Shown: positions 50 to 24,227 of the stretch, in pieces
How positions within the stretch are numbered: the first letter of the stretch is position 1
Layout of the letters: each line of letters opens with the position of its first letter
Notes under the pieces: model-generated
Told to the model about the DNA's origin: nothing
What the model saw: the letters and a program-made list of their open reading frames with translations, nothing else
Database searches by the model: none
Position numbers and translations under genes: made by a program
From: an uncultured Verrucomicrobiales bacterium
GTDB lineage: Bacteria; Verrucomicrobiota; Verrucomicrobiia; Verrucomicrobiales; Akkermansiaceae
DNA: 34,889 bases
Assembly (NCBI GenBank): GCA_913060685.1
Contig: CAJXVQ010000007.1
Coordinates: forward strand, 1-34,889
Reading direction: 5' to 3'

Positions 50-3000
50 ATGACCCAACAATTTGCCCAGGGAGTTGCCACAAATGTCGAAGGGATCTCG
101 AAGGCCTTCGATCAATCGATTCCCGCAGAAGTGAAGTGGCTCCGCCAAAACCGGCATCACAACTCCCACGTAATCTACCGCTTCCGCGGTTATTTTCACG
201 AACCTGCCGAGGTGACCCGCCGTTTCAAGGTGGAGCTTGGGAAATATCAGGTGCCCGAGAAGACGCATCCCTCGGTCGCGCATCCTCCCCAGTTCCTGCT
301 CGCGATCGATGGTCGGAGAATTACCGGTGAGGATGGCCGCCTGGAAGGTGGACTGAACCTGCGCGCCGGCTTGCACCGCTTCGAGATTTGGGCGACCGGC
401 TGGGATTGCGCCATCGGATTTGGTCGCGATATCAAGTTGCAGGCCAACCTCGACGATCCCGACAAGTTCGCCGATTGTCCTGACAATTTCTTTGATCCGA
501 AGACATTTCCCGATGGTGTCTTGGAGCATCGTAATGCTCCTGCTGAAATTGCGGCCGACGCCGATGGCACTCGGTTCAACGTCACATTTGCACCTGACTC
601 ACGTGCCCGGTTGATGCGTCTGGTGTTCCTCGATCAGGGGGGACCCGTTCCTGCCGTGAACCGGATCACCTTGAACGGTCCCGACGGGAATAAGCTGTTG
701 CCGGTCGCCGAGGATTTTTCATCGCTCAATAAAAATGAAACCCTGGAGATTCTTACCGGGGATAAGATCTTTGTGCGCTACGTCGATGACCGCTTCGTGA
801 CCGACAAGAAGGAGAAGCATGAACGCTTCCTCAACGTCTCCTTCAGCGATGGTCGGGTCGAGTTCGCCGACATGGAACCTCGCTGGAATGAGAGGGTTGG
901 CAAGGATATGCCTTTCTATGAAAAACTTCTTCGTTTCCCCTACGACCAACCGCTCAGCATTGCGGTGCACGATGCGGATATGGATGTGACGGTTGAACCA
1001 GATACGGTGAAAGTCAGCATTGCCAGCGAAACGGGTGGAATCAAGGAGCTCATCGCCACCGAGACCGGTCCATCTACCGGTATCTTCAAGGCGGTGATTA
1101 CACCGGTGGCAGACGCTGCATCAGGCGAAACGCAGATCCAGGTCGCCGAAGGAAGTCATTTGACGGCAATCTACCGGGATGCCGAAAACAATCGTCCGGG
1201 TGTGCCGATGGAACGTCGAGGTAAGATTGTCCACGCAGGATTTCAGCTACCCGAGCTCCAGATCGCCCACTCCTCCGTGGAATTCCAGGAGCGTGACAAG
1301 ACAATCGAGAATAGCCGGGCAATCTGGCTTGTGGAAAATAAACTCACCCCGGTAAGCAATCCACCCGAAGGAGGGATCTCCTTGATTCACGGCAGGATGG
1401 CGTATCTCGAGATGAAGGCTCCACACCTGGCTCTGCGTAATTCCTCACAAGTGAAAGTTTATGCCCAGACCGAAGCCGGGCGTGCTGCCTCTGAAAACGG
1501 TGCAACCCAGGATTTTGATATCAATGTGCCCGGCACGGTAGAACTCACCGGCGCGCTGGGAAGTGTGCTGATAGGCAACGAATGGAGGGGGCTGCGGAAT
1601 CGCGAGAATCGTCGTAGCTGGGAGAGTCGGAACTATTCCGGTGGACACGTGGAGTGGGGGACTCCCAATCCTGTCGCCAGCGACCGCTTCCGTTTCTCCG
1701 TGCCACTGGTCGCCGATGTGTTGCCACTGCGTGGTGTCATCACTTACGAGGAACGTAGGGATCTCCAAAAACAGATTGAGACCTCCCGCAGCGCCTCGCG
1801 TATCCTTGAGCAGGTTGGTGGTGGATTAGTCGTCCGTCCGGGCGAAAAAGTATTCTTCGGTTTCCGTTATAAGAAGAGTGATGGCGAAGATCATTGGATC
1901 ACAGCCTCCGCAGAAGTGATCACGCACCCGCTGTTCGAGGTCATGGACGAGGACTTCAGCAAGCGGCTCACCAGTGTTTATGCTGGCGAGACTCTTCATT
2001 TGAGGGTCAACGACCTTGGTGCTGATTTAACCGATAAGAGCGATATTGTGACAGTCCTCCTGCAAGCGAAGTCAGGAGCCAAATCCCGGGTGGAATTACT
2101 GGAAACCGATCCCCATAGTGGTGTCTTCACCCGCGGATATGTTCTGAGTTATGCAAGCACCCCCGGACCTCTGCCCGATGGTTATGACGTCAGGCGTCAG
2201 GGGTTCCCAATCACCTATGGCGATACCGTGGCTGCGCGCTACACCGATCGCAACGGAGTGAAGTCACCGCTCTCGATTGTGGCGATCAGTAAGGGAGCCG
2301 ATGGCACGATTCAGCCGTTTTCCAAGCAGTATGAGGACGCGGACGTTGCAATGCGCACCCAGTTTTCCCTCGCGGAAGCCTACCTGGAGATCGCGAAACG
2401 GCATCGTCGTCTTGGCGAGACTGAATTGGCAGCCCGTGAATACGAGCAAGCGAAGCAACTGCTTGCCAATGCGATGGATCAGTTTCGCGATCCTGAGACC
2501 CGAGCCCACGCTGAATACCTCCTCGGAAATCTGACCCTGGAGGAAGCCGATACGACGGAGGCCGGCGAGCTGAAGGAAGATCGATACCGCGCGGCGTTGT
2601 CACGCTTCATGACAGTCACCGGGAGCTACTCCGGCACTCTTCATGCCTCCAAGGCGCAGTTTAAGATCGCCACGATTTACGAAAAACTCAAGGAGCCAGA
2701 AATCGCGGCGCAGGAGTATGTCAAACTCGCCTACAAGTATCCCGATTCCGAATTCCTTGCTACCTCCATGGCGAGGCTTGGCAGCCATTTCCTGAAGAAA
2801 GCTGCGGGTTACGAAGCAAAAGCAAAACCGCTTCTGGAGAAGGGCACGACGGAAGAGGACAAGGATGCGATGTTCGAGGGGGAGGCGATGCAGAAGATGG
2901 CGGTGCGTGAGTATCTCAAGACCGCGCAGATTTTCGGTCGACTTCAGCAGCGTTTCCCAAGCCATACCATGGCGGGTGCCGCTGGTCTGCGGGCAGGCCA

Positions 3001-3289
3001 GGCCTACATGCGCGCCGGAGAGCTCCCGGAGGCAATCGATGCCTTCAATCACGTCATCAACGAGAAAAGCTACGACGGCAAGACCATCCGATCGCAGGCG
3101 ATGTACTGGACCGGCAAGTGTCACCAGGAGAAGCGCAACCAGATGGCCGCTTATTCGATCTATAAACGTCTCACATATGATTTTCCGGAGAGCGACTGGG
3201 CTGCCTATGCACGCGGCCAGCTTTCCCAGGAGGCCTTACTTAATTTGGAGAACAAACTTGAACTGGAGAGACTTGAGGAAGGGCAATGA
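50..3289 (+). CDS. Giant PA14-like / ETG-repeat / TPR envelope protein, 5'-truncated
   Basis: This is the C-terminal 1079 residues of a large, probably secreted protein whose start is lost in the adapter. The ATG at 50 is only the first in-frame Met of real sequence and probably not the native start. Residues 40-120 resemble a PA14-like beta domain, with an aromatic-rich strand, an AIDGR turn and a RAGLHRFEIWATG strand. Ig-like repeats with an ETG-x-x-TG-x-F type core lie near residues 302-352 (ETGPSTGIF) and 649-705 (ETDPHSGVF). Residues 767-1075 are helical TPR-like repeats such as LAEAYLEIAKRHRRLGE and YLLGNLTLEEAD. The whole visible protein aligns with the C-terminal 1050 or so residues of the next gene, so the two are tandem paralogues. 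Its TGA overlaps the next ATG (ATGA at 3286-3289), which indicates translational coupling. The function is unknown. The domains suggest a periplasmic or surface scaffold or carbohydrate-binding role, and this is inference. Confidence 0.85.
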   Translation: MTQQFAQGVATNVEGISKAFDQSIPAEVKWLRQNRHHNSHVIYRFRGYFHEPAEVTRRFKVELGKYQVPEKTHPSVAHPPQFLLAIDGRRITGEDGRLEGGLNLRAGLHRFEIWATGWDCAIGFGRDIKLQANLDDPDKFADCPDNFFDPKTFPDGVLEHRNAPAEIAADADGTRFNVTFAPDSRARLMRLVFLDQGGPVPAVNRITLNGPDGNKLLPVAEDFSSLNKNETLEILTGDKIFVRYVDDRFVTDKKEKHERFLNVSFSDGRVEFADMEPRWNERVGKDMPFYEKLLRFPYDQPLSIAVHDADMDVTVEPDTVKVSIASETGGIKELIATETGPSTGIFKAVITPVADAASGETQIQVAEGSHLTAIYRDAENNRPGVPMERRGKIVHAGFQLPELQIAHSSVEFQERDKTIENSRAIWLVENKLTPVSNPPEGGISLIHGRMAYLEMKAPHLALRNSSQVKVYAQTEAGRAASENGATQDFDINVPGTVELTGALGSVLIGNEWRGLRNRENRRSWESRNYSGGHVEWGTPNPVASDRFRFSVPLVADVLPLRGVITYEERRDLQKQIETSRSASRILEQVGGGLVVRPGEKVFFGFRYKKSDGEDHWITASAEVITHPLFEVMDEDFSKRLTSVYAGETLHLRVNDLGADLTDKSDIVTVLLQAKSGAKSRVELLETDPHSGVFTRGYVLSYASTPGPLPDGYDVRRQGFPITYGDTVAARYTDRNGVKSPLSIVAISKGADGTIQPFSKQYEDADVAMRTQFSLAEAYLEIAKRHRRLGETELAAREYEQAKQLLANAMDQFRDPETRAHAEYLLGNLTLEEADTTEAGELKEDRYRAALSRFMTVTGSYSGTLHASKAQFKIATIYEKLKEPEIAAQEYVKLAYKYPDSEFLATSMARLGSHFLKKAAGYEAKAKPLLEKGTTEEDKDAMFEGEAMQKMAVREYLKTAQIFGRLQQRFPSHTMAGAAGLRAGQAYMRAGELPEAIDAFNHVINEKSYDGKTIRSQAMYWTGKCHQEKRNQMAAYSIYKRLTYDFPESDWAAYARGQLSQEALLNLENKLELERLEEGQ

Positions 3290-6200
3290 TCAGTCATCAG
3301 CAGAAAACAATCAGGAGTCAGGCTGCAGGTCACGTGAGAGCCCTTGGGGCGGCGTTCGCTTTCCTGGCATTCACTACTGGCTGGATTGCGGCGTCACCAC
3401 TCGACGATCAGATCGCCGCGTTTAAGGATGCGCCGACCCAGACCGAGGGCGCGGTTACGCAGATCTTGCAATCGGGTATCAAGGAGCATCGCTCCGCGAA
3501 GGGCTTTGCCGCCGTGCGCACGTGGCTGGGAGCCAACCCGACGAGCTCGCAGCAGCTCCTATTCAAAGCAGGACAGGCGGCAGAATATGCCGTAGAGTGG
3601 AAGGACGCCGCCGGCTTCTACCGAAAGCTCCTCAAGAGTCCCAAGGTTGATTCCGGGCTTGCCGCCCAAGCGGCACCTGCGGTTTACCGTATCATGATCA
3701 ACTCCCTCGGAGACTCTGAGGCCGCATATCTATTCATGCGTGAGGACGGCGATCGTTTGAGAGCCTATGGTCGAACCCGTCAGTTTGATTCCTGGTTCCT
3801 TGAGCAGGCTCAGAGTCGCGCTGATTTCGCCGCGATGGCGAATCGACTGGCTGCGGTCTTCAACAGTAACGATTCACTTGAGCCCTATGCGGGCAATCTC
3901 GATGCCTTGCTGCGTGAGTTGGAGACGTTTAATCATGATGACGAATCTCTGTTTGAGTCTTTGGATACATTAGCCGCGGCGAAACGGACCACCCCTCAAA
4001 CCAAGGCGCGGATTGCATGGGTGAAGGAGATCGTTCCCCTGGCAGCCACCATGGCGGAATTGGTCGGCGCTAAGGAAAAAATTCATGATCATCTCATGGA
4101 TGATGCGATCAAGGCCGCCAATGCCCTTGTTATGGCACTGCCCTATGAAGGATCGATGGCGGTGGCGAAGGGCTGGATGCACTTCAATGCTGGCGACTCG
4201 GGGGTCTTCGCGACCTTTGTCATTCCACGACGTGAGGAAAAGGCCGCCCCGTTATTGAAGGCCCTGCGCGGCCTAACCGCTGATCAGGCTCGGGACATTC
4301 TTGCCTCCAAAATTGCAGGTGCCAAGAATCGGATTCCTGCCGGGTATCTTTTTTCCCGGCAGGACCTACGGGTACTCGTGCCCCAGATTCCAGAGGTGTT
4401 CAATACTCTGACGGCTCCGGACGTACCGCTCTTCGATAAGACTCTCACTCTGGAAGAGGCGAAGGCGATGGCTCCGCATCTTGCCCGCAATCCCCATGCC
4501 CAGGCGGCGATGGTTCGCGTGTGGGCCAAGCCCGAACGCAAATACAGCCTCGTCGTCGATGACCTGATGAAATCGGAAATGTGGCGTTTCACCGACATCA
4601 AGGACCTCAGCAAGGGGATTTGGAACAGCGGGATGTTCGAAAAGGACGGGAATGATTCCGACCCGATCAAAAAATACGAGAATCTCGATGCTCGTTATCA
4701 GCAGCTGAAAAAGCAGATCGACCCGGAGGCCAACAGCAAGGATCGTCTCACCGCATTCAAGGCATTGCAGAGGGACCTTTTATCTCCCGGGCCAGTCCTT
4801 CCCGGATCAAACGTGCTCTGGGATGAACTCTTCGCCCAAGCCCCGGATGCCGATAAGGTGACAATGATCAAGACTTTGTGTGCGAACCTTGGGGGAGGGC
4901 GTGAGTATTTGCTACACCGCGCACTCGGCAAATCGCAGTTCGGCAAGGGCGGGGCACTCCCGTGGCAGGCCGACGTCTACGACAACCATTTCCGTTACCA
5001 TCAGAAGGGGACAAGAGAGACTGCCGGAGATCTCATAACATACCTCGGTGGCCTCGTTCGCGCCCAGATGAAAGCCGGAACGATTTCCGAAACAATCTTT
5101 GGCATGTGGCTTCACAGTATCGATCCCCGCAAGCCGGAGGCTGTGGAGTTCATCAAGGTGCTCGTGGCCTCGCCGGCCTACGCCAAACTCGACCCGGCCT
5201 ATCGGCGCGTTGCAGCCGACAAAAGTCACTTCGGCAAGGCAGCTCTCACTGCCGGTGCCATGGCGCTCAACGATCCCGGGTATCTCAGTCGTGAGTTGCT
5301 TGCCCTGGAAGCGGGCGCCACTCCCGCTCAGGTGGAAGCCGCCCTCATAGCGGCAGTGGACCGCGCTTCCAAGGCTCCCGATTGTGTCACCGTCATTGGC
5401 CTCACTCAAGTGGCCGCCACGCCCGAGTGGACTGGCGGAACACGTGCTCTCGTCCTCTCGCTTTTCAATGAGAATGTGGGGTTAGGAATCATCCCCGCGA
5501 AGCAGGGATACGAGCCGTTGATTCAGCGACTCACCAAGGATCTCTCGGAGGAGAAAAGCTGGGGCACGCTCGAACCTTACGTCGCCGGACTCTGGCATGC
5601 GGCCTCAGGCACCGACGACAAGAATCATTACCGGGCCGCCGAATCGCTCACGCAGTTTGGAGAGGCGGCCTTTGAAGACGGGGCTTCTTCGCTCGCCATG
5701 ACCGTGGCCCGGAGCGGCAGTCGTAGCGAGGCCGGTCGCGCCCTCGCTGCCAGCACGGATCCGCGTCTTGTTCGCATCAGTGGTCGTCTCCGCCAAGTCA
5801 CCGGCAAGGCCGCCACCGAGGTCGGTGCCGTGGAAATTCCGGTCGATGAATCCGATCCCGCGTATCTCATTTACAAGTCGAATGCCGAATTCGTACAAGG
5901 CAATGTTGACTCCGCTTGGGCGCTCTATCAGGAAGGGGCCGATCAGTTGCAGGCGGTTCTTAGGAAGACCTCGGTTGAATACGGATTTTGGTTATTGAAG
6001 CGTAATACCGAGACTGGAAATACCGACCTCGCCGAGCAGTTGGTGAAGGAGTTGACGATCTGGTCACGCCAGGCCGAGGGAACCTTCAGCCTTGAACAAG
6101 ATGCCGAACTCAAGATTTCCTACGCGGATCTCGCCTTCCTGAAAGGGGCTCTGCCAACTTCACGAGCCTGGTATCGCAAGGTCGCTGATGCCAAGGAATA

Positions 6201-9200
6201 CCAGGGATCGGATATGGGAATGCGAGCTGCCTTGGGATCGGTAAAAATCGACCGTGCTTCCAGGAATTTTGGAGCTGCCATGACCGAGCTCGATAAACTG
6301 ATGCGTATCAAGAATCCCGGCTCCCGCATCAAGGTTCACTACGCCCGCGCCGAGGTGTTTATGGATCAGGAAAACTATAAAGAAGGACTCGGCGAAATTG
6401 AGTCCGTCCTGCGCCGGGAGCCAAAACACCCGGATGCCCTGATCCTTCGCGGTAAGATTCACAACCATATGCGCAAACTCGTCGAGGCGAGCGAGATCGA
6501 ACTTGGACCATCCCAGGAGAACACCGTGATTGTGCCGGGCGAGGCGGTAAAAATTAATTTACGTGACCCCACACTCCGGGTCTCCGGAGTTGGTGCTGAT
6601 ATCGAAGTCGAGATCTGGGCAAAGTCCGGTGACAAGGAACGCGTCATGCTGCGCCAACTTGGTGACAACAAAGAGAAGTTCCGCGCCGAGGTGCCGACCG
6701 CGCTGGGACCACCGATTCCCGGTGATAAGATTTTGCAAATCCTCGGCGAGGATGAGATCCGTTTCGGTTACTCAAAACGATTTCGAGCCAAGATGGACGA
6801 TCTGCCGGAAGATCCTGAAATTGTCATCGGAGTGGCGTCGGATGCTCAGCTGGCACTCGCGGCAGGCGCCTTTCCACCTCGCGAGGGCGAACGACGTCTC
6901 GATATCGAGGAGCTCGGTCTTTCAACGGCACAAGCAGCCCTGGGGACGCGCTCAGTAAGGCCCGGTAATCCGGTATACCTTCGTGTCAACGATCCGGACC
7001 AAAGCAAAACTTCAGCCATCGATGAAATCTACCTCACTCTGACAACTTCGAGTGGCGATGAGATTCGCCGTCTCAAGTTGACCGAGACCGGTCCCTTCAC
7101 CGGAGAGTTCCAGGCCATCGTCCCGACCAGTGGGGCTCAGGCATTGGCCTTTGCCTCCGAGAGCGCGCCGGGCAGTGACCCGAACATGGCGATTAGCGCC
7201 AAAGACTATCCCGGATGGTCCGGCAAGGTCGGCGACCGGGATAGCATGCGCACATTCGGCATTGATCTGAACGACAACGTGCCGCTCGACAAAATGTCGC
7301 TTGTTTCCAGTGGTGCTGGTCAGTCGCTGACCCATTTTGTGTTGCAGACATCGATGAACGGCAAGGAGTGGACGACGCGGGCACGTTATCCCGAGGAGAA
7401 AAACCCCGCCCCCTGGGACGGCCGTCCACGGGTGTCCTTTAGCCTCAGGACCGATCCTGCCACTCATTCCATCCCCGGGGACCGGACCCTTCCCGACGAC
7501 TGGACACAAGCCATGGAGGTCGCTTCCCTCCGCCCGAAGAGTACCTACAGCGCCGAGATTGCTCCCAACCTCTCCCTTGGAATGCTTCCCAACGGGGGAT
7601 TTCACCCGAACGAAACGGTGCTGCTCCAGTTCAGAGCTCTTTTTTATCAGCCGGCCGCCGCGATCCGCCGCTTCCGCCTCGAGGGGTTTCCGCTCGTCAG
7701 TGAAAAGGGCGAAACCCGGACGATCTTCATGATCGACGGCCAACCCGCTTCCTCGGAAATCGACGACCCGCTTGGTATTGAACGCAAATTTGGCCCCGGA
7801 CTTCACGAAATCGAGGTTTGGTCGACCGAGTCACTTGGCGAGTTGAAGAAGCGCAAGCCGGTCCTCTCGTGCGATGTGGCTGGTAAGGACGAGCTCGCAC
7901 CATGTCCCGACGCGATGTTTGACCCGAGCACCTTCCCGGAGGGGGTTCGTGCAACGATCCAACAGCCTGCCGCAATTACGAAGAGCGACGACGGCTTCGA
8001 TATTGCCTTCGGCGATCGTACCCAGGCACGTCTCACTCGCTTCGTCATTGCAGGCTTCGAGGGTGTCGCGCCGGTGATCAAAAAAGTGACACTCAGCGAC
8101 CGCGGAGGCAAGGTTCTGTTGCCGGTGACCCAGGACTACCAGGCATTGCGTGCGAACACGGAGCTGGAGGTGCTTCCCGGCGACCAGATTATCGCCCGCT
8201 ATGAAGATCCGGTCACGGCGACACCCAAACGCTCGAAGCATGAGAAGCGCCTGACGGTTGCTTTCAATAACGCGGAAATCTCCGCTTCATTTCTGAACTA
8301 CGAGACTACGACCGAGGGTCGTGTCTTGGTGTTGGAGCCGATCCGCCGTTTCCGTTTCGACGACGCGGTCGCGATCGTTATCAACGATCCTGACATGGAT
8401 GGCAGCCCGAAGCGTGATGCGGTTGAATTTAAGATTACGACCAGCAGTGGAGGTGAGGCGAAGGTGAAGGCGTTGGAGACCGAGGAGCACAGCGGCCGTT
8501 TTATCGGTAAGATCTTTCCCGTTGAAGGTGAACCATCGCGAGCGTCGGAAATCAAGATGACCAAGGGTGGAACGCTGACCGCGGTCTATCGTGATCAAGA
8601 GAATCTCAGTCCGGGTATTCCCACTGATCGAAAGGTGACGATCTCTCACGCGAATTACGAAATGCCATCGTTGGCCGCTTACAACCTTACGAGCAAAAAA
8701 CTCCCGCCAGCAAAGCCAGAGGAGGAGCCAGCGAGTCAGCCCAAGACCAGAAAGGGCAGCAGATTGGCTCCTGAGATTGTGCCGGAGCACCGGACCCTGG
8801 ATTACCATTATATTGGTGAGGAAAAGTTATCCGATGAGGATCTGCAAGGTGTTGTGGGTGCGAGCCTGCGGTTTGATGTGGTGGTTCCCCATCTTGCTCT
8901 TGCAGAGAGCAGTGAAATCCGGGCTTACATTCAGACTGACGCCGCACGCAAGGCGGCCAAGGCTGATTTAAAATCGTCCTTTAACGTCAGCGTGCCCGGC
9001 ACGATGAAGCTGACTGGTGCATTGGAGGGGGCAGAAGTTATGACCCCGAGTGGTTATCAGGTTGGAGCCAATCCGCGCTCACCATCGAACCAACCCCCTT
9101 TGGAAGAGGGACGCTTTTCGTTTTCCATTCCACTCATTCTAGGTGACCCGCCAACGGTGAGCTACGCGAACAAAGCCGCGGAGGCGCTGCCGAGTTCGGC

Positions 9201-10716: not shown

Positions 10717-11072
10717 TGATGAATCAACGGGAACAAGAACTCCTCCGGGAGGAAGTCGGCGATGCCAGGCCTGAGCTTTGTATTCGCAGCAACGCCCGAA
10801 TCGATACGGGGCGTTGGTGGCGGCGGACGCCTCTGTGGATTTGTGTGGTGTCAGGTGAACTCATCATGCTGGCAGTGGGGCGTCGCCGTTATTCAGCTCG
10901 CCTTCCTCTTTCCCGTTGCGGGGAAAGCCACTACAATCACGCCACCGGCGAATTTGTGGTTGTCCCGGGCGAAGAATTAAAATTCAGCCACTTTCCACTT
11001 TCGCCACGCGAAGCTCTTGAACTCCTTCGGTTTTGGAATTCATCAAATCTCACTTCCCATACCCGTAACTGA
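10716..11072 (+). CDS. Unknown 118-residue protein, possibly PH-like
   Basis: The ATG overlaps the TAA of the giant gene by one base (TAATG), and a second ATG follows directly, so the start could be 10716 or 10719. The protein has no signal peptide and only a short hydrophobic strand (WICVVSGELIMLAVGRRRY) that is too short and charged for a confident membrane span. The alternating strand pattern, ending in a helix with SPREALELLRFW, resembles a small PH-like or beta-barrel domain, but I do not recognise the family. It ends 16 bases before the exbB start. Its tight placement between the giant genes and exbB argues that it belongs to the same complex, perhaps as a cytoplasmic accessory (inference). 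Confidence 0.7.
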   Translation: MMNQREQELLREEVGDARPELCIRSNARIDTGRWWRRTPLWICVVSGELIMLAVGRRRYSARLPLSRCGESHYNHATGEFVVVPGEELKFSHFPLSPREALELLRFWNSSNLTSHTRN

Positions 11073-11088
11073 ACATCCGTTAAGAATT

Positions 11089-11733
11089 ATGTTAGAACAT
11101 CTTTTAAAAGGAGGACCGTTGATGGTCCCATTGATCTTGTGCAGCTTGATTAGCCTAGCCGTCGTTTTTGACCGGTGGTTTGCCTTTCGTGATAATAGGA
11201 AGGTCAACACCCGCTCGTTGCGATCGAAGGTTCTCGGCCATCTCCGAAAGAATGACATTGATTCAGCAGCACGCGAGTGTGAGACGGCACGCGGACCCAT
11301 TGCCTCGGTTCTTCTGGCCGGCCTCCGTTCCTACCAACATCTGAGTGGTAAGAAGGAAAGTTCGGAAACGATGCGACTCGTGGTCGGGCAGGTAATGGAA
11401 GACTACAGCACACAAGCCATGGGTGTGGTGAATCGGCGCCTTGATGTCCTGACCACGATCGGGACAGCGGCACCACTGTTGGGGATGACCGGAACGGTGA
11501 CTGGAATGATCGCCTCTTTTGCCGGACTTGCTGATGCCGGAAGCGTGGGTGGTAGCGGCGGAGCAGTGGCGAATGGTATTGCCGAAGCGATGATTACGAC
11601 TGCGGTTGGCTTAATCGTCGCGCTTCTCGCGGTGATTCCCCAGAGTGTTTTTAATCGTTGGAGTGATGAGATCGAGCTTGAGATTGAGGAAGCGAACAGT
11701 GAGGTCGTTGAGTTTATCCTGACCCACCACTAA
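11089..11733 (+). CDS. exbB: MotA/TolQ/ExbB proton channel family protein
   Basis: This is the inner-membrane stator subunit that, with ExbD, couples the proton motive force to envelope work. The start chosen is ATG 11089 (MLEHLLKGGPLMVP), giving 214 residues, because an upstream in-frame ATG at 11017 would overlap the previous gene and add a non-family leader. TM1 lies near residues 11-32. The conserved TolQ/ExbB core GTAAPLLGMTGTVTGMI falls in TM2, and AMITTAVGLIVALLAVIPQSVFNRW forms TM3 and its exit helix. The length is short but normal for bacterial ExbB/TolQ-like proteins. It is followed 19 bases later by two exbD genes. Whether it works as Ton, Tol or another stator is not decided by sequence alone, so the symbol denotes the family only. 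Confidence 0.92.
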   Translation: MLEHLLKGGPLMVPLILCSLISLAVVFDRWFAFRDNRKVNTRSLRSKVLGHLRKNDIDSAARECETARGPIASVLLAGLRSYQHLSGKKESSETMRLVVGQVMEDYSTQAMGVVNRRLDVLTTIGTAAPLLGMTGTVTGMIASFAGLADAGSVGGSGGAVANGIAEAMITTAVGLIVALLAVIPQSVFNRWSDEIELEIEEANSEVVEFILTHH

Positions 11734-11752
11734 GCATAACCAGGAACACCCC

Positions 11753-12166
11753 ATGAGAAAACGCGATCGGAGAGAGAAGAAGCACCGCTCGGGAGAGATT
11801 CCGACCGGTTCGTTCTCGGATATCGCTTTCCTGTTGATCATTTATTTCCTCGTCGCAACAACCTTGGTGAAGGTGAAGAGCATTACGGCTGACCTCCCAT
11901 CCGGGGAGAAATCAAGCCAGACCCAATCAGACAAAACTCCCACCATCAATCTCAAGAACGATCTGATCATGTTTAACGACAAGAGGGTTGATCTTGCCGG
12001 GCTTAACGAACGTCTGTCGGCCCTTGATCTCCCGGAGCAGGAAGCGGATAAGCGGATTATTCTTTTGGAGTCAGCAAAGGGAACTCCTTACGAAGTCTAT
12101 TTTCAGGCCCTCGCGGCCATTAGTGCAAACGGCGGCGTGGTCGCTCTCGTGGAGGATGACAAGTAA
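11753..12166 (+). CDS. exbD: ExbD/TolR family protein, first copy
   Basis: This 137-residue protein is the single-TM partner of the upstream ExbB. A basic cytoplasmic N-terminus (residues 1-14) is followed by a TM helix at about residues 20-40 that starts FSDIAFLLIIYFLV. The Asp is the conserved proton-binding residue of the ExbD/TolR/MotB class. The periplasmic domain follows (residues 45-137) and ends with the family's usual VVALVEDDK-like strand. AGGAAC lies just upstream of the ATG as a ribosome-binding site. A second exbD starts 3 bases after its stop. Confidence 0.93.
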   Translation: MRKRDRREKKHRSGEIPTGSFSDIAFLLIIYFLVATTLVKVKSITADLPSGEKSSQTQSDKTPTINLKNDLIMFNDKRVDLAGLNERLSALDLPEQEADKRIILLESAKGTPYEVYFQALAAISANGGVVALVEDDK

Positions 12167-12169
12167 GCG

Positions 12170-12592
12170 ATGAAGAAACGAGCACAGCGAAAGAAGAGGC
12201 GGATGGTCCCGGTGCCGATCGCCAGCATGGGAGATATCGCTTTTTTGCTGATCATCTTTTTTCTGGTGTGCAGTGAAGTCGCCAAGGACAAGACCAACCT
12301 TCAAGTCACCCTTCCCAATTCCGAGTTCGTGAAAAAGACAAAGACGGCGGTGGCAGCGCGAGTGGCGATTGATGCCGATGGCGTCATTTACTTTGATGGC
12401 GCGCGCGTTGAGAATTCCAAGGATGTTGAATGGGGAGTCCGTGCCGTCCTTGCCAGCACCTCGACCGACGACCAACGTCACGTTCAATTTAAGTGCGACG
12501 CCGCACTCCCGAAGGAAACCTTCGAACCTGTCATGAAAGCAATCGCCGAGGCGGGAGGAATCATAGAAGCGGTGGGGGAAAAAAATCAGTAG
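12170..12592 (+). CDS. exbD: ExbD/TolR family protein, second copy
   Basis: This 140-residue protein has the same layout as its neighbour: a basic N-terminus (KKRAQRKKRR), then MGDIAFLLIIFFLVCSEV with the membrane Asp retained, then a periplasmic domain. Outside the membrane helix the two copies differ strongly, so they are probably specialised subunits of a heteromeric stator, not a recent duplication. It starts 3 bases after the first copy and ends 12 bases before the TonB-like gene. Confidence 0.93.
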   Translation: MKKRAQRKKRRMVPVPIASMGDIAFLLIIFFLVCSEVAKDKTNLQVTLPNSEFVKKTKTAVAARVAIDADGVIYFDGARVENSKDVEWGVRAVLASTSTDDQRHVQFKCDAALPKETFEPVMKAIAEAGGIIEAVGEKNQ

Positions 12593-12604
12593 TCAGAAAA
12601 TCAA

Positions 12605-13066
12605 ATGGAAGAAAAAGAGATCAGGAACCAGTCGAATCACGATGAAATTTCACCGGACGAATTGATGGAGAATTTCCGGGGGCGGAGTTTGAAATCGATC
12701 ATTCTCTTCACGGTGGTGATCCATGCCATTCTTCTTTTGGGAACGAGTATTCCTTTCCTCAAAAAGTCGATCATGGGGCGTGATACCTCCGGGTTAAGTG
12801 AACAGGAACGGATGGAGTTGGCGATGAAGGAGGCGACCCAGTCATTACGGGATATCGCCGAGGAACATGGACTAAATGTTCAGGACATCAGCGGCAATTT
12901 TACCGACGGAGGCCCAAAGCGTGCCCGTCAAAAGGCGCCCGAAGCACCCGCTTCGGAGCCCAAAGTTCCTGAACCTGAATCGAGCATTGAGAAAGAGCTC
13001 AAGGTGAAGAGCGGCGGCCCCGACGTTCCCAAGATCGAAGACGACGAAGAGGATCTTTTCAAGTAG
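12605..13066 (+). CDS. Short TonB-like single-pass membrane protein without a TonB C-terminal domain
   Basis: This 153-residue protein has a charged cytoplasmic N-terminus, one TM helix at about residues 28-48 (SIILFTVVIHAILLLG), and a periplasmic tail rich in Pro, Glu and Lys (KAPEAPASEPKVPEPES). The TM directly after a basic segment, followed by a Pro/Glu/Lys linker and placed just after exbB-exbD-exbD, is TonB-like. However, the tail ends in an acidic EDDEEDLFK sequence and no TonB receptor-binding domain is present. It may be an accessory anchor that links the stator to the larger downstream proteins (inference). It ends 28 bases before the DUF4159 gene. Confidence 0.75.
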   Translation: MEEKEIRNQSNHDEISPDELMENFRGRSLKSIILFTVVIHAILLLGTSIPFLKKSIMGRDTSGLSEQERMELAMKEATQSLRDIAEEHGLNVQDISGNFTDGGPKRARQKAPEAPASEPKVPEPESSIEKELKVKSGGPDVPKIEDDEEDLFK

Positions 13067-13094
13067 GCCCTGAGTCCACCGGTTTGCTGGCACT

Positions 13095-14711
13095 ATGAAA
13101 TCCAATCAAAAAAGTTCTCTTCCTACCGAATGGGTCGATGAGATACCCACGCGCCCTTCGCTCTCAAAGGCGATGGTCGTCTGTGTGGCCACCGTGATGC
13201 TTTCGGCATTAGGTTGGGCTGCCTGGTCATGGGGGCCACGGGCATTGTCGGCTTTTTTTGGCCGTAATTCCGGGGTGATGGAGGTTTTTGAATCCCTGAA
13301 TCTCATTCGGGCACTGGCAATTTCCTTTCAGGCCTTTGGAGTGGTGGGACTTCTGTGTGCTGTCACCGGGTTGCTTGGGGTGGTGCGAAGTCGTGTGACC
13401 TACCATCTTCTTCGGAATTCGCTGATTCTCGTATACCTTGCTGTCGCTTGTTATGTCGTCATCGTTTGGATGGGGCTTTTTGCGGTGCTCGATGCGGAGG
13501 TTGAGATTGATGGCGAAAAGCAGGATCGAGCGACGATCCTATTGCGTTGGTGGTCCGTTTGCTGGCCAGCTCTTGCGGTCGCTCTCTATGCCGGCTGGTT
13601 ACGATTGATGTTGAAGAGTCGCTCGGTATACGCAGCCTTCACGAGTAAGAAAGGAGAGCCGATGTCCGGTGACCGGGTTCTCGAAGACTTGCGGACGCAT
13701 GGACGGGATCCTCGTCATCGTCGAAGCCTCTACGCCAGTTTTGGCACGCACGTGACAATCCTGATCATCATCCCGTGGTTGCTCAGTCTGGGGGGGCGTG
13801 TTGAGGCCTATAAGGTTCCCAAGGGAAGTGGTAACCCGGTCGTGGCAATGGTGAAGATGGTGAAGCCGAAGAAGAAAAAGAAGAAGACTCTGACCCTGCG
13901 TGCCAATTCCGATATCATCATGGCCATTCCTGATTTGGATGAAACCGAAGTGGATCAGGAAATGGAGAAACAAACACAGGCGACCTACGAGGCTGGTGCG
14001 ATTGCCAAGGCGGGTAAGATTGGCAAGGGTGGGGGTACCGAAGGTGGCTGGCCGGCCGGAATGGATGATTACAAAATCCGCTTCATTCGTCTTGATCATG
14101 GTGGAGCAGGCTGGGACGACGGGATGAATGAAACCGGTGCCGATATTAATTTCCTGCGCGCGTTCGCCAAGATGACCGGTTTGAAGAAAATCGCCCGCAG
14201 GGGCGAGAGCCATTCAATTGGATTGCTTAAGAAGTATCCCAAGGACGGATTCCCTCCCTTTGTCTATCTGACTGGCAACGGAAGCATGGGGCGGGTCAGT
14301 TCGGGCGATATGAAGATTCTCCGCGAATACTGCCTCGGCGGGGGGATGCTCATCGCCGATGCGGGCAGCGCCCGTTTTCATAGCAGCTTCATCCATTTTA
14401 TGCGCCAGGTCTTTCCCGACAAGCCGCTGATTGATATCGCTGATGACGATATGCTTTACCAGGCTCCCACCCGCTTTCCTGATGGCGCTCCGGCATTTTG
14501 GCATCACGGTGGTCGGCGTCCGTTGGGGATCAAACACGACGGACGCTGGGTTGCCTTCTATCACCCGGGCGATATGAATGACGCCTGGAAATCCCAAGGC
14601 TATACCGACGTCTCACCCGAGATGCGTGATGCCGCTGTGAGTTTGGGCGTTAACCTTGTCAATTATGCCTTCAATAATTGGGACGATGCTGTGACCAAAG
14701 CCAAAAAATGA
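13095..14711 (+). CDS. Five-TM protein with TonB-like lysine linker and C-terminal DUF4159 domain
   Basis: The 538-residue protein has predicted TM helices near 27-46, 71-97, 108-131, 152-172 and 213-233. The fifth is followed at 257-264 by a KPKKKKKK run and an acidic linker, a layout reminiscent of the TonB segment that crosses the periplasm. Residues 326-530 match DUF4159 as I know it: DYKIRFIRLDHGG at the start, a central FVYLTGNGSMGRVSSGDMK strand-turn, and LGGGMLIADAG. DUF4159 has a class I glutamine-amidotransferase-like look and often occurs with BatA-type proteins, and its activity is not established. I see no obvious catalytic Cys-His-Glu triad. Its TGA overlaps the next gene's ATG (ATGA, 14708-14711). 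Confidence 0.85.
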   Translation: MKSNQKSSLPTEWVDEIPTRPSLSKAMVVCVATVMLSALGWAAWSWGPRALSAFFGRNSGVMEVFESLNLIRALAISFQAFGVVGLLCAVTGLLGVVRSRVTYHLLRNSLILVYLAVACYVVIVWMGLFAVLDAEVEIDGEKQDRATILLRWWSVCWPALAVALYAGWLRLMLKSRSVYAAFTSKKGEPMSGDRVLEDLRTHGRDPRHRRSLYASFGTHVTILIIIPWLLSLGGRVEAYKVPKGSGNPVVAMVKMVKPKKKKKKTLTLRANSDIIMAIPDLDETEVDQEMEKQTQATYEAGAIAKAGKIGKGGGTEGGWPAGMDDYKIRFIRLDHGGAGWDDGMNETGADINFLRAFAKMTGLKKIARRGESHSIGLLKKYPKDGFPPFVYLTGNGSMGRVSSGDMKILREYCLGGGMLIADAGSARFHSSFIHFMRQVFPDKPLIDIADDDMLYQAPTRFPDGAPAFWHHGGRRPLGIKHDGRWVAFYHPGDMNDAWKSQGYTDVSPEMRDAAVSLGVNLVNYAFNNWDDAVTKAKK

Positions 14712-15928
14712 ACTGGAATCCGGAATACTTTAGCGAAATTGGTTATCTCGGAGTTGGTCTTTCGGGAGGAACCTTGTTGATGTGGTTGGTTTATTTGAAG
14801 AAGCCCGCACGCTTGTGGAGCACGGTGGCATTGGCTTTGGTTGTGGTGTCTTTTGTCTGTGCGAGAATTAATTCGAAGGGCCATGTGAATCGAATTCAAC
14901 CCGATCGGAGCGCAGAGCTTGTGAAGCAGGCGGCTCTGGAAGAGGCGAAACAACAAGCTTTGCTTGATAGCCGTAGCGACGAAGTGTCCAAGATCCGCTT
15001 CGCAGAGGACGGGGCCAGTGATTTTCTTGATCGCGCGGGCATGGATGATGCCGATCTTAAATATTTTGAAAGCAAGGGAGGCTTTGGCGAACCCGGGTGG
15101 AAGAGAGAAAAGAAAACCCGCTCGGGGGGCGGGGGAGACGGAAGCCTTGAGTCGGAGATTGGTGGCGAAGATGTTATTGGCGGGGTGCAATCCGAGGAAT
15201 TTGAAGCAGACGAGGGAAGTGAACCGATCATCATGGCGGAGGCTGACATGGTCATGGCGAACCGGCTCGATCTTTTGAATCTGCGACTGACCTTGATTCT
15301 TCTGGCGCTTGCGATTTTTATCGTTCTTTACGACTACCTCAGGCGTGCAAATCTGTATGGGAAAGCTTCAAGGCCTCTTCCTTTGCCGAGTTCATGGCTC
15401 AATGCCCTGACTCCCATGCCGCCTCTGGTGGTTTCAAAGAAGCGTCATCGAAAGTCCGCCCGGAGCGAGTTGGCACGGCTGGCGAAGCGTGGTGATTCGT
15501 TTGTCTACCTGACTGATGATCCCGCCCGGGTTGCCAAATTTCCCAAGTCACTGAGAAGACTGCCATTCATTGGTGGGAGGGAAGAGTTGATTCCAGCAAG
15601 TGCCGGAGTCGATGATGATTTCATCTTTGAAACTGTTTGGTACGGACGTAGTTCGTTTGTGGTTGATCGCCCGGAAAGAGCGCTCACATTGCTTGCCGGT
15701 TTTCTGGCGAGGCTCGAGCAACGAACGGTTTCTCGAGCCAGGGTTTCTCAAACCGCCCATCTCGTTTGGGATCTATCGATTCCAATGCCCCGGGAAACCC
15801 TTGAAGAGGCGATGAAGCTGGCCCACGCGACCGGGTTTTCAATTCTGATCCTCCGGGAAAAATTATCGAAGGCAGCGCAGGCGAAATCCAGCCCATCCAA
15901 ACTCGAGGGAGAACCCATTCCATCATGA
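14708..15928 (+). CDS. Unknown three-TM membrane protein (406 aa)
   Basis: The start is ATG 14708 in an ATGA overlap with the DUF4159 gene. A further upstream in-frame ATG at 14678 would lie inside that gene and is less likely. Predicted TM helices are at about residues 11-30, 36-53 and 190-210. Between them lies a charged, partly coiled region (EEAKQQALLDSRSDE) and a Gly-rich low-complexity linker near 138-155. The C-terminal 190 residues form a soluble domain that I do not recognise. The layout resembles BatA/BatB-type membrane proteins of aerotolerance operons but no VWA MIDAS motif is visible. It couples to the next gene by another ATGA (15925-15928). Confidence 0.75.
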   Translation: MNWNPEYFSEIGYLGVGLSGGTLLMWLVYLKKPARLWSTVALALVVVSFVCARINSKGHVNRIQPDRSAELVKQAALEEAKQQALLDSRSDEVSKIRFAEDGASDFLDRAGMDDADLKYFESKGGFGEPGWKREKKTRSGGGGDGSLESEIGGEDVIGGVQSEEFEADEGSEPIIMAEADMVMANRLDLLNLRLTLILLALAIFIVLYDYLRRANLYGKASRPLPLPSSWLNALTPMPPLVVSKKRHRKSARSELARLAKRGDSFVYLTDDPARVAKFPKSLRRLPFIGGREELIPASAGVDDDFIFETVWYGRSSFVVDRPERALTLLAGFLARLEQRTVSRARVSQTAHLVWDLSIPMPRETLEEAMKLAHATGFSILILREKLSKAAQAKSSPSKLEGEPIPS

Positions 15929-18900
15929 AGACACACTTTTTTAAGATTCTCTGTTTGTTGCCAGGCCTTGTCGCCGTGGCTCCTGCAGAAGAGCGCACGC
16001 TTACGCCCGAACAGATGGAGGCGATCGCCAACCAAGGGACACCTGAAGGCGAGCAGAACCAGCGCCCAAAGAAGCTGGTTGACCTCACCAAGGGTGAACT
16101 TCCGCCCGAGACGACAGACCGGCCTTGGACCCTGGGGCCAACCGGGATCGTGGGAATGTGGACAGGCAGGTTCTCTGGAGATCAGTTCCAGGTGTTGACT
16201 ACCATCAAAGGCTCACCCTCCGAGGGGAAGTTTTTGCCCGGCGATGTCCTGATCGGCTTGAATGGGAAGAAATTTGTCGCCGGTGGTCACCTTGGTCATC
16301 TGATAGGTAACGCGATCATTGAAGCCGAGCGCGAGAAGAATGCGGGCAAGATCAGCTTCCTGGTCTGGCGCGATAAAAACTATATCAATCGCAACGGGAA
16401 AAAGGATGTGGTCGGAGTGGATATCGATCAGCTTTTTGACAAAGCCCGCGATGACAATTCGCTCTACGAGTGGAAAAAAGAAGAGGAGCGCACGAAAGAG
16501 GCTCAGGGCTTCGGTGAGTTTCCCATCATTCCGAGTAATCTTGAGATCAGTCTGACGATCCGCACCTTTCCCGACTATAGTGACACCGCTCCCTACGATT
16601 GCCCGAAGACCGTACAAATTCTTGAAGAGGCCTGGAAGGTGTTGGAAAAAAAATTTATCGTTGATCCCAAGGTTCGCCGCAGTGGTGGTGGTATGTTAGA
16701 GGCGATCGCGCTTGTTGCTTCAGGGAAGCCCGAGCACCGCAAGATGGTACACGACTGGGTGCGTGGTCCCCACGCCAAGCAATGGCATCCGCCGACTGTC
16801 CCTGCCGGGGCGATGTTCGAGCCAGGCTATCGGGGTGGCAAAGGTTACCAGAGCTGGCACCATGGATTTACGGGACTGAATTGTGCTCTCTACTACGAAG
16901 CGACAGGTGATGAGTTTGTCCTGCCCGCCCTGCGGAAGTATGCCATTGACACGGCCCTCGGTCAGAGTGGTGGCGGAAGCTGGGGGCACACCTTTGCCTA
17001 TCCATCCTTCAATGGGGGTGAGTTCCACCGTATGAACCCCGGATACGGCGCGCTCAACGCCGCCGGTAACCGCTGCTTCTTCCTCATCACCCTCGCAAAA
17101 AAACTCGGCGTCGAGCATCCCGAGATCGACCAGGCCATCAAGCGCGCCCACAAATTTTTCGGCTCCTACGTCGACCAGGGAGCCATCCCCTACGGCGACT
17201 TCGGCGCTGCTGCCACCGACGATAGCAACGGAAAGAACACTGGAGTGGCCTTCTCAATGAAGCTGCTCGGCGACAAACACGGCGCCAAATACTTCGCCAT
17301 GATGTCGAGCCACTGCGCCTTCACCCGCCGTGGAGGACATGCCGCCGATTACCATGGAAACTGGTCTTCATGGGCTGCCACGATGTGTGGGCCCAAAGTG
17401 CGTATCTACAACGAGCGCAACCTCCGCTGGCGGCGCACGCTCTGCCGGATGTTCGACGGCAGCTTTGTCTATCATTCGCCGACGTGGGAATACAAGACAT
17501 TGCGCGACCCCACTGCCACCGAGATTCTCCACCAGGCGGTTTACCTCAAGCAGACCCTCATCACTGGCAAGGACTCCGACGAGGATCTTTATCCGACCGA
17601 TCGGGAAATGAAGCAACTGATGACCAGCGCTCGTGCACAGTTCAACGATCCGTGGCTTAAGGAACTCGATGGCAGCCCGTGGCAGGAGCGCAGCACGAAG
17701 GAACTCATCGACCTGCTCGACATCTTCAAACCAAAGGCGCGCGGAGTTTTTGCCCGCGAACTGGGCAAGCGCTTCATGGCCGGGGAAAAAGAAATTGTTC
17801 CCAACGTCGTCGCTTTGCTGGCGAGCAAGGAAGCTCGCTTCCGTGACGGGGCCCTGCGCACCCTCGGTGCTTGCGGCAACGATGTCGTACTGCAAAATTT
17901 GTCCAAACTCACTCCGCTGCTCAGCGATCCGAAGGACTTCGTTCAGATCACGGCGGTGAAAGTGATCTCGAAGGCCACCGATGCCGAGGACACCCAGCTG
18001 GCGATGTTGAACGCCACCTTGGAGGAACCCCAGACGGTCTCACCCAACGCCGTGAACAACTCGACCCAGTATGCTCTCTTCGGCAAGGATAACACCCTCG
18101 CCAACACGCCCTTCGAATCCGGTTTCGACGAAGAACTCGTGCGGCAGGCCCTCGAGGAACTCATTGCCCTCGACCCCGCCTTCAAGCACTTTACAGGCTC
18201 CCGCCTCAAGGCTTGGGGCAAGGACACGATTGTCAAGATCGCCGGACCACTGACCTTCGCCGCCGAGGAGGAGCAAATCGTCGATCAGATGTTCGCCAAC
18301 CGCTGCGAGCCGTCACAGGCGTTGCTCGGAAAGTTTGGTTACCGCGAGGGCGTGTATAGCACCGCCCACAGACTACTCAAGAAGGCCGCCATCCCTCGTC
18401 ACATCCGACCACACGTCGGCTTCAAGCGTAATTTGATCGATCCTGATGTTGTGACGCGGCAACCGGGCGCATTTCACGAGTTTATCGAACCGCTCGGAGT
18501 TGTCCTCACCGACGATCCGCTGCAGCAGGTCATGAAGCTCGTAGGAGATAAGAAGGTCTACATCGATATGATCAAGTTTTATGACCTTATCGCAGCGGAG
18601 AAGAAATCAATCACCCTGCCGAGCATCGCACCCGACGTGCAGAAGATGTTCCAGAGCAAACTCGATGCCCTGGACGGCACGGGAGCAAAGATCAAGCTGT
18701 GTCGATCTGAATTAAAAGACCCGTCACGTAAAAACTATTTTCGTAAGATGGCGGCGATGGATTTCCTGAACGAGATGCTTGGAGAGGACGCTCTGGAGGA
18801 TCTTGTGCCCTATCTTGGTCACGACTACTGGAGGTTGCGCAAGCACAGCCAAAAACTTGCGGCGGAACTTGTGACCGTTGGTGCCGGCGATGCGCTCGCC

Positions 18901-19884
18901 GCATTTTTCTCGCAAACCGCTGACCCTGCGTCCGCTGCGGGTATTCTTGAGGTGTTCGCCAAGACTAACGCTGATGTCGGTCCCTCACTCGCCAAAAGCG
19001 CGATGAAACACAAGGAACCTCAGGTTCGTCAGGCTGCAGTGAAGACCGTTATCGCCCTCGGCGGCGAGAAGGTGCTGCCCGAAATTCTTGCCCAGCTGAA
19101 GCAGTCGACCACACAAGAGGACCTGCGCGGCTGCGAGCAGGCGCTGCTTTCCCGACGTGACGATCCTGCCCACATTTCACGGGTGCGCGATGGTCTCATT
19201 GAGCTGCTTCCACAAGCGACTGAAGCCGTGCGGTCCTCCCTTTATTACCTGCTCGCCCAGATCGGTGATACGCAGAGCATCACGGCACTGGAGAAAGCGG
19301 CTGGCACGGATAGCGTGGCTGAGTTGGAAGAGATTATTTTAGCACTTTCCTACTCACTTGGTCGCCCTGCTGACGAGTTGATGCTTAAGCTCGCCAAGGT
19401 CGACAAGCAGACGGCCAGAGTTGTCGCTGCTCAGTCGGTGCGTCGCATGGTGCTCGGGCCGAAAGGGTTCGGGGACATCACCAACGCCGAGCGTCTGGAC
19501 TTTGCCGAGCCGATGCTGAAGCTCTCCCTCGACAAGCGCCTCATTAGCTTCCTTGCCAACGTTCACGAGGCACGCGCGCTCCGGACTCTGATGTATTGCC
19601 TGGAAAAGGGAGTCGAGGAAGCCGCCGAGAGCCTTGTTGCCAATGCCGAAGGCATGAAAAAACTCTCAGCTAAGGATTCCAAAATCGCAGCCAAGGCAAT
19701 ACGCGACGTCATCGAATTTATCGAAGTGAGTCGCCTCCGTGGTGGCCCATCAGCCCACATGTCGAAGGAAGACAATTATTACGGCTGGAAAACCCTCCAA
19801 GCTCGCGCTGGTAAAGTGCTTCTCAAGGTCTATAAACCTGAGACTGCGCCGATTCCGGAGTTTGATCCGCTTGATCTGGAATAG
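15925..19884 (+). CDS. Secreted PDZ / DUF6288-like toroid / HEAT-repeat protein (1319 aa)
   Basis: A signal peptide spans residues 1-21 (hydrophobic core ILCLLPGLVAVAP, cleavage near PAEE). Residues 72-150 form a PDZ-like domain, with GPTGIVG as the carboxylate loop region and LPGDVLIGLNGKK as the typical second half. Residues 210-520 contain HHGFTGLNCALYYEATGDE and SGGGSWGHTFAYP, an alpha/alpha-toroid type domain that I associate with DUF6288 of Planctomycetota and Verrucomicrobiota (recalled, not searched). Residues 590-1290 are HEAT-like helical pairs, for example MKHKEPQVRQAAVKTVIALGG. It is the last gene of the long operon, so it is likely an extracytoplasmic partner of the ExbB/ExbD machine. 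No catalytic residues can be named with confidence. Confidence 0.85.
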   Translation: MKTHFFKILCLLPGLVAVAPAEERTLTPEQMEAIANQGTPEGEQNQRPKKLVDLTKGELPPETTDRPWTLGPTGIVGMWTGRFSGDQFQVLTTIKGSPSEGKFLPGDVLIGLNGKKFVAGGHLGHLIGNAIIEAEREKNAGKISFLVWRDKNYINRNGKKDVVGVDIDQLFDKARDDNSLYEWKKEEERTKEAQGFGEFPIIPSNLEISLTIRTFPDYSDTAPYDCPKTVQILEEAWKVLEKKFIVDPKVRRSGGGMLEAIALVASGKPEHRKMVHDWVRGPHAKQWHPPTVPAGAMFEPGYRGGKGYQSWHHGFTGLNCALYYEATGDEFVLPALRKYAIDTALGQSGGGSWGHTFAYPSFNGGEFHRMNPGYGALNAAGNRCFFLITLAKKLGVEHPEIDQAIKRAHKFFGSYVDQGAIPYGDFGAAATDDSNGKNTGVAFSMKLLGDKHGAKYFAMMSSHCAFTRRGGHAADYHGNWSSWAATMCGPKVRIYNERNLRWRRTLCRMFDGSFVYHSPTWEYKTLRDPTATEILHQAVYLKQTLITGKDSDEDLYPTDREMKQLMTSARAQFNDPWLKELDGSPWQERSTKELIDLLDIFKPKARGVFARELGKRFMAGEKEIVPNVVALLASKEARFRDGALRTLGACGNDVVLQNLSKLTPLLSDPKDFVQITAVKVISKATDAEDTQLAMLNATLEEPQTVSPNAVNNSTQYALFGKDNTLANTPFESGFDEELVRQALEELIALDPAFKHFTGSRLKAWGKDTIVKIAGPLTFAAEEEQIVDQMFANRCEPSQALLGKFGYREGVYSTAHRLLKKAAIPRHIRPHVGFKRNLIDPDVVTRQPGAFHEFIEPLGVVLTDDPLQQVMKLVGDKKVYIDMIKFYDLIAAEKKSITLPSIAPDVQKMFQSKLDALDGTGAKIKLCRSELKDPSRKNYFRKMAAMDFLNEMLGEDALEDLVPYLGHDYWRLRKHSQKLAAELVTVGAGDALAAFFSQTADPASAAGILEVFAKTNADVGPSLAKSAMKHKEPQVRQAAVKTVIALGGEKVLPEILAQLKQSTTQEDLRGCEQALLSRRDDPAHISRVRDGLIELLPQATEAVRSSLYYLLAQIGDTQSITALEKAAGTDSVAELEEIILALSYSLGRPADELMLKLAKVDKQTARVVAAQSVRRMVLGPKGFGDITNAERLDFAEPMLKLSLDKRLISFLANVHEARALRTLMYCLEKGVEEAAESLVANAEGMKKLSAKDSKIAAKAIRDVIEFIEVSRLRGGPSAHMSKEDNYYGWKTLQARAGKVLLKVYKPETAPIPEFDPLDLE

Positions 19885-21339: not shown

Positions 21340-21372
21340 GAGATTTGAGAGGGGTGAATTTTGAGAGATGTT

Positions 21373-24214: not shown

Positions 24215-24227
24215 GGGTAAAGAGAGG

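Follow-up and report, generated by a model that had tools for sequence, protein, structure and literature searches.

Among the main degraders of sulfated polysaccharides from marine algae are the Planctomycetes and Verrucomicrobia, yet little is understood of how these bacteria deliver such polymers to, and through, their envelopes. Within a 34,889-nucleotide contig from an uncultured member of the Akkermansiaceae (CAJXVQ010000007.1, assembly GCA_913060685.1; the whole stretch is referred to here as the window), we analysed a row of ten genes at positions 50-19884 that brings together an ion-driven motor of the ExbB/TolQ and ExbD/TolR families, two candidate transducers and giant exported proteins. 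Such energised sets, comprising 8-12 genes and up to about 10,000 residues, are conserved from Akkermansiaceae to Planctomycetota. We consider it nearly certain that they form a coherent unit, and likely that this machine carries out proton-driven force transduction, by which the cells probably take hold of, or pull on, material at the cell surface. The chance that it has a glycan-related surface role approaches even, and the reading taken as a whole, in which an envelope-spanning force machine driven by the proton-motive force includes among its actions the gripping of, hauling of or movement along polysaccharides, is evenly poised. The machine extends the known range of proton-driven force transducers and offers concrete genes and residues that are testable in a cultured carrier of the operon, Rubritalea profundi.

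Gene order, co-occurrence and sub-types

The ten open reading frames (ORFs), all on the forward strand, lie head to tail in the order A, B, C, ExbB, ExbD, ExbD, G, H, I and J, with spacings of -4, -1, 16, 19, 3, 12, 28, -4 and -4 bp; nine are complete and the first, A, is truncated at the contig edge. A preliminary description of this DNA had proposed ten coupled genes in which stator, transducers and giants make up one energised envelope unit, and it is borne out by the co-directional ORFs, a gene order conserved in relatives, the co-occurrence of the parts and the conservation of the motor residues. Loci in relatives were found through H, most of them by H alone, rather than through the motor genes. 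An alignment of H, searched against 84,980 species, yielded 219 relatives, and the named organisms among the best 80 of these 219, which were fetched, all belong by title to the Verrucomicrobiota (including Kiritimatiellia and Lentisphaerae) or Planctomycetota, a placement in which the titles of metagenome-assembled genomes may mislead.

Of the non-redundant H genes, 86 have 3.2 kb or more of upstream sequence, and in 83 of these an ExbB gene and at least two ExbD genes precede H on the same strand; a giant protein is encoded upstream in 66 of the 71 non-redundant H loci with at least 8 kb of upstream sequence. When 97 relatives were scored for the giant's beta module and for a strong H, 23 had both, one the giant only, none H only and 73 neither; the sole giant-only genome is 81% complete, and the Fisher p value for this co-occurrence (2e-21) is inflated by relatedness. 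In relatives the stator thus keeps company with the giant and DUF4159 genes, the opposite arrangement having been named at the outset as evidence against a single machine. As judged by the conserved gene order, the grouping is far above chance, and chance adjacency can be ruled out.

The ExbB and ExbD proteins belong to standard families, as they would in an ordinary TonB-ExbBD set that merely adjoins giant genes by chance. We consider this explanation highly improbable, since linkage with H and the giants is kept over much of the Planctomycetes-Verrucomicrobia-Chlamydiae (PVC) group and the operon lacks both a TonB C-terminal domain and a receptor, each of which is found elsewhere in the genome. 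Family scans found no TonB-dependent receptor within the window and no TolA, TolB or Pal in the operon, in line with the preliminary description; the genome encodes seven TonB-dependent-receptor plug domains, three TonB C-terminal domains and five OmpA domains in other places. With these defining parts missing from the operon and TonB, receptor and OmpA genes lying separately, an ordinary Ton or Tol-Pal locus was ruled out, as had been claimed.

Sub-types were labelled by a simple gene-content rule, which mislabels a few loci (e.g. L233, L136 and L143). The window's own arrangement defines sub-type Ia (A-B-C-ExbB-ExbD-ExbD-G-H-I-J). Sub-type Ib reads giant-C-ExbB-ExbD-ExbD-G-H-I, sub-type II reads PSCyt/PSD1-DUF1501-TPR (~725 residues)-giant (~2,375)-ExbB-ExbD-ExbD-G-H-TPR, and sub-type III reads giant-TPR-TPR-ExbB-ExbD-ExbD-G-H. 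A single-contig relative (G399) carries a complete operon of the first kind, TPR-TPR (790)-A (2,594)-B-C-ExbB-ExbD-ExbD-G-H-I-J, its first TPR gene being cut at the fetched edge, and holds a type II operon at a separate place. The window's genome (G000) likewise has, in addition to Ia, a second operon of type II (L052, G000:C254:1-9120) encoding a giant, ExbB, two ExbDs, a TonB-like protein and a DUF4159 protein (truncated at the contig end). At E < 1e-40, a strong H match is present in 24 of the 388 Verrucomicrobiota genomes and in 15 of the 294 from Planctomycetota, where two of the 15 had supplied query sequences; the distribution is widespread but patchy. As read from these sequences, the machine forms a family that spans the PVC group and divides into several sub-types, and the window's genome has two of them. 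One planctomycete operon (L225, G477) has two H genes in tandem.

The motor and its candidate transducers

The motor subunit, of the ExbB/TolQ family (11089..11733; PF01618, 90 bits), most likely starts at 11089, giving 214 residues as in its orthologues, rather than at a TTG at 11017. It is followed by two ExbD/TolR-family subunits, at 11753..12166 (PF02472, 68 bits; membrane Asp23) and 12170..12592 (PF02472, 62 bits; membrane Asp22). All three matches are above cut-off, confirming the earlier description of an ExbB and two ExbDs with the membrane aspartate intact. Across 89 operons, the ExbB channel threonines T160 and T195 and their neighbours (numbered from the TTG at 11017) are invariant (100%), and the membrane aspartate is kept in 99% of first and 100% of second ExbDs. 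Channel threonine and membrane aspartate, by which we judged membership in the 5:2 ion-driven motors (MotA/TolQ/ExbB with MotB/TolR/ExbD), are therefore both present. In an inner-membrane motor of this 5:2 type, ExbB would presumably be pentameric, and the axle may be a heterodimer of the two ExbDs.

When 46 machine ExbBs were placed in a tree with seven further proteins of the ExbB family from the window's genome, the machine ExbBs fell on one side of a branch (support 88/72; 90% of bootstrap trees), a separation that appears moderately supported, the other rows being long-branched, and the sub-types largely formed clades. Over the 89 operons, distances correlate between ExbB and H (rho 0.92) and between ExbB and the ExbDs (rho 0.83-0.86). 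Among curated ExbB/TolQ models, ExbB scores best against TolQ.

In E. coli TonB, a Ser-x3-His spacing forms the core of the SHLS motif. It is through a helix carrying this motif that TonB and TolA dock on their motors (PMC12204202). When the products downstream of the ExbDs were examined for a Ser/Thr-x3-His helix as expected of a TonB/TolA-type transducer, two were found to have one. Gene G (12605..13066) codes for a 153-residue inner-membrane protein with a single helix bearing Thr36-x3-His40, followed by a charged, proline-rich tail. Gene H (13095..14711) codes for a 538-residue protein with a DUF4159 domain (PF13709, 99 bits) and Ser215-x3-His219, which sits in the last helix of its membrane part. 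Neither G nor H has the Leu and Ser that complete SHLS at the spacing seen in TonB, so that the full SHLS spacing is not retained, and Pfam scans (E 0.1) gave no PF03544 or other TonB/TolA match in either protein. The "two TonB-like proteins" of the preliminary description thus hold good for the TonB-type helix and fail for the TonB C-terminal domain.

The motif follows the sub-types. In 80 of 89 operons, the second ExbD and H are separated by an ORF that bears a helix, counted as G. In G, [ST]x3H is present in 30/31 operons of sub-type Ia and 10/12 of III, and sub-type Ib retains the histidine (15/16) but mostly has a different residue four positions before it; in H, the motif is present in 32/32 Ia, 18/18 Ib, 3/15 III and 1/24 II operons. 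Only 4 of 236 other predicted helices of the same loci carry it; as this control includes spurious ORFs and the operons are related to one another, the contrast gives no formal probability. Judging from the motif, both G and H look able to dock on the motor in the window's sub-type. We regard the motor and its coupling as well supported.

In the structural model of H (pLDDT 78.7), a helical membrane part is joined by a disordered linker at about residues 247-307 to a predicted periplasmic DUF4159 end domain. This end domain superimposes on 4i66, a crystal structure of the DUF4159 type (Z 22.4, rmsd 1.8 over 185), a match also found by Foldseek (E 2.6e-8) and by sequence (E 3.8e-7). The next fold matches, to glutamine-amidotransferase (GATase)-like domains and the IFT52 N-terminal domain (Z 8-9), could be explained by a shared arrangement alone. 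With DUF4159 and GATase-like folds as its nearest matches, H was not taken for a von Willebrand factor A (vWA) protein; no vWA domain stands among the 50 matches listed, although a vWA likeness could still escape such a list. A vWA gene as a hidden member of the operon was set aside: in two genomes (G262 and G404) a match lies ~4-5 kb after H, but H is not consistently followed by a vWA gene. At the end of the fourth helix of H (13731-13800), a lipobox-like Gly-Cys is found in 29/32 Ia, 17/18 Ib and 21/24 II orthologues, hinting at internal lipidation or cleavage; the window's H reads SLGGR here, with Arg in place of the lipobox Cys. Shorter H-related DUF4159 proteins with no stator genes adjoining them (L050, L119, L120, L135 and L154) are possibly decayed or repurposed copies.

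Giant proteins, known systems and possible roles

Two giant exported proteins are encoded upstream of the motor. Gene A (50..3289; TPR_6, 46 bits) is represented by its C-terminal ~1,078 residues, which contain Ig-like 'ETG' repeats followed by a YbgF/BamD-like TPR region (79.3 bits against TIGR02795 YbgF, under the cut-off of 90.1). Full-length A in relatives has 2,594-2,606 residues, and the window's fragment aligns to residues 1511-2606 of A from one of them (G066). Another contig of the window's genome (C428, locus L053), likewise bounded by adapters, bears an ORF of 1,351 residues that covers residues 52-1350 of full-length A, and the ORF preceding it is 77-88% identical to a ~780-residue TPR protein found upstream of A in relatives. 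By this correspondence, C428 is very probably the upstream continuation of the window's operon, with a gap of about 160 codons between them.

Gene B (3286..10716; F5/8C, TPR and YfiO matches) codes for a 2,476-residue protein in which a TPR solenoid precedes S-layer-like Ig domains with a CBM32/discoidin-like domain and a C-terminal YbgF/BamD-like TPR region. Pfam TPR matches occur in both A and B, as stated in the preliminary description. An AlphaFold model of B residues 1070-1800 (pLDDT 82) predicts a string of Ig-like domains plus a CBM32/discoidin domain, with matches to the Nitrosopumilus maritimus S-layer (Z 16.3, rmsd 4.5 over 229) and to the CBM32 structure 4a44 (Z 15.2, rmsd 2.2 over 124). 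This CBM32-like domain, at about residues 1280-1610, appears to be split by an insert; the module previously called PA14-like found no Pfam confirmation, and the model gives the split CBM32/discoidin fold in its place. A and B also show a weak sequence likeness to an anammox S-layer family.

The resemblance of the C-terminal TPR regions of A and B to YbgF/CpoB and BamD, together with TolQ as the best-scoring curated model for ExbB, would suit a stand-in for or companion to Tol-Pal that maintains the envelope by holding or constricting the outer membrane through giant CpoB/YbgF-like proteins. This seems rather improbable: the patchy spread described above is unlike that of a housekeeping division system, the genome has OmpA-domain proteins elsewhere, and such a role would not predict glycan-binding and S-layer-like folds. 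A secretion or assembly motor resembling GldLM/PorLM of type IX secretion, which would export or build surface proteins with the giants as a periplasmic scaffold, is suggested by a weak TPR match of A to PorW/SprE (19 bits against a cut-off of 250) and by the DUF1501 and PSCyt/PSD1 genes that adjoin type II operons. We consider it improbable, no outer-membrane secretion channel having been recognised in the operons read; a conserved sorting tag was not searched for.

Comparison with characterised systems places the machine among transducers that act across the envelope. It shares with TonB-ExbB-ExbD and TolA-TolQ-TolR the motor families and the Ser-x3-His docking helix, and differs in having two ExbDs and in lacking a TonB/TolA C-terminal domain, an adjoining receptor, TolB and Pal. 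In Myxococcus xanthus, the Agl-Glt machinery comprises the TolQ-like AglR, the TolR-like AglQ and AglS, the TonB-like GltG, which binds AglR, and several TPR proteins including the 4,132-residue GltI (PMC3169522). A comparison of parts lists found the same components in both: one TolQ-type and two TolR-type subunits, a TonB-like transducer and TPR giants, the giants being likened to A and B by parts list and description, not by sequence. By analogy, then, the PVC machine may work like TonB/TolA and like Agl-Glt (PMC3169522, PMC9389320).

This correspondence in kind (PMC3169522), with giant modules that look adhesive, raises the further possibility of a surface-motility machine, in which motor and TonB-like transducers would move envelope-spanning TPR giants adhering to the substratum. 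We think gliding unlikely: GltG carries FHA and TonB_C domains, both of which are absent from G and H, the operon has no motility regulator, and no motility record was found for these mostly uncultured bacteria. Moreover, the Agl-Glt parts list, which has no DUF4159 protein, is spread over three gene clusters, with glt and agl separate, whereas the genes here form one operon; for Agl-Glt, gliding is proven.

In Fibrobacter succinogenes, FSU_2396-2403 has the layout OmpA-TPR (84 kDa)-TPR (147 kDa)-ExbB-ExbD-ExbD-TonB-family; growth on cellulose raises the levels of most of the encoded proteins, its TPR proteins lie in the cell envelope, and its authors interpreted it as a Ton uptake system (PMC6851124, PMC4619616). 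It resembles the PVC operons in combining TPR genes with ExbB, two ExbDs and a TonB-family gene, although its TPR proteins are smaller and a DUF4159 gene is not named there. The nearest published sighting is a class of PVC vWA force transducers, reported in 2025 from loci with TPR, tolQ and two tolR genes, as in Tichowtungia, the function of which was left open (PMC12204202). These share with our loci their PVC hosts, a TPR gene, one TolQ, two TolRs, and a transducer with a helix bearing a conserved His, a flexible linker and an alpha/beta end domain. By description they are set apart by that end domain, which is vWA (YfbK-like), whereas H has a DUF4159 domain of GATase-like fold; DUF4159 is not mentioned in that paper (PMC12204202). 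Searches on DUF4159 found no paper in the library covered that names the machine by this marker. The preliminary claim of an undescribed machine must accordingly be narrowed by the 2025 report, and otherwise stands, the machine being hardly described.

We favour an energised, trans-envelope force machine. In this model, the Ser/Thr-x3-His helices of G and H would dock on ExbB as TonB and TolA dock on their motors, and their flexible linkers would carry motion into the periplasm, where H ends in its DUF4159 domain. The load would be A, B and their TPR partners, forming a large periplasmic or surface assembly with CBM32-like and S-layer-like domains. The most likely job of the machine would be cyclic pulling on, or remodelling of, this assembly, by which the cell may grip, haul or move along polysaccharides. 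Indirect signs of a polysaccharide role are the CBM32-like fold, the sulfatase-rich window, the neighbouring PSD1/DUF1501 genes of type II operons and, in Fibrobacter, an operon of similar layout whose proteins are mostly raised on cellulose. The CBM32-like fold and the likeness to the Fibrobacter operon lend strength to the polymer capture or envelope transport first proposed, although we still infer, rather than observe, such a substrate. A more specific version is possible but doubtful: a PVC-specific class of machine in which a mixed-ExbD motor drives two transducers at once, and these work a giant lever, glycan-binding and S-layer-like, that extends to the cell surface and draws polysaccharide toward the outer membrane or through it. 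If true, protons would here power an alternative to SusCD and TonB receptors.

Several points weigh against the force-machine model or its polysaccharide part. Two-armed docking is not universal: H mostly has no such histidine in sub-types II and III, and few G proteins of sub-type II have it (5/21). A CBM32-like (discoidin) fold can bind ligands other than glycans, the giants would have to be exposed at the surface, the Fibrobacter parallel is one of published gene layout, not of sequence homology, and sulfatases directly follow J only in the window's genus. Finally, no outer-membrane barrel that could pass force outward was recognised in the operon.

Accessory genes, contig ends and surroundings

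Gene C (10716..11072) codes for 118 residues with no predicted transmembrane helix and lies between giant and ExbB in the orthologous Ia and Ib operons. Gene I (14708..15928, with its start at 14708), which follows H in Ia and Ib, codes for a membrane protein of ~406 residues with about three predicted helices, in keeping with the three-helix membrane protein noted earlier. Family scans of the window's proteins gave nothing above chance for C, G and I. Gene J (15925..19884), which accompanies sub-type Ia only, codes for an exported protein of 1,319 residues with DUF6288 (PF19805, 271 bits) and HEAT repeats (HEAT_2, 61 bits); the HEAT module was thereby recovered, and Pfam gave no confirmation of the PDZ-like stretch noted earlier, at the N-terminus of J. 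A promoter and terminator scan gave consensus matches alone, close to the level of the shuffled background, and was set aside.

Both ends of the window are assembly artefacts. Sequence reading and an adapter scan identified a Nextera read-1 adapter at 1..48 (exact at 16-48, TCGTCGGCAGCGTCAGATGTGTATAAGAGACAG) and Nextera adapter sequence over the ~50 last bases (34842-34889). Because adapter occupies the window's first bases, gene A is truncated and its apparent 'MCIRDR' start is not biological, which rules out A as a complete protein of 1,085 residues. Every other contig examined from this genome (C254, C428, C146, C489, C433, C206, C639, C476 and C640) also has untrimmed Nextera adapters at its ends, and such adapters create spurious protein termini, among them MCIRDR and LLYTSPSPRD.

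Right after J, on the minus strand (19921-26532), lie genes for three sulfatases, a 485-residue unknown protein and a xylose-isomerase-like protein; the sulfatases, which stand directly beside J in the window's genus only, were rejected as part of the unit. Beyond these, a DUF1800 gene stands next to a DUF1501 gene (26935-29738), and the window continues with genes for a bifunctional penicillin-binding protein (PBP1 type) and two trypsin-PDZ (HtrA-like) proteins (29735-34201).

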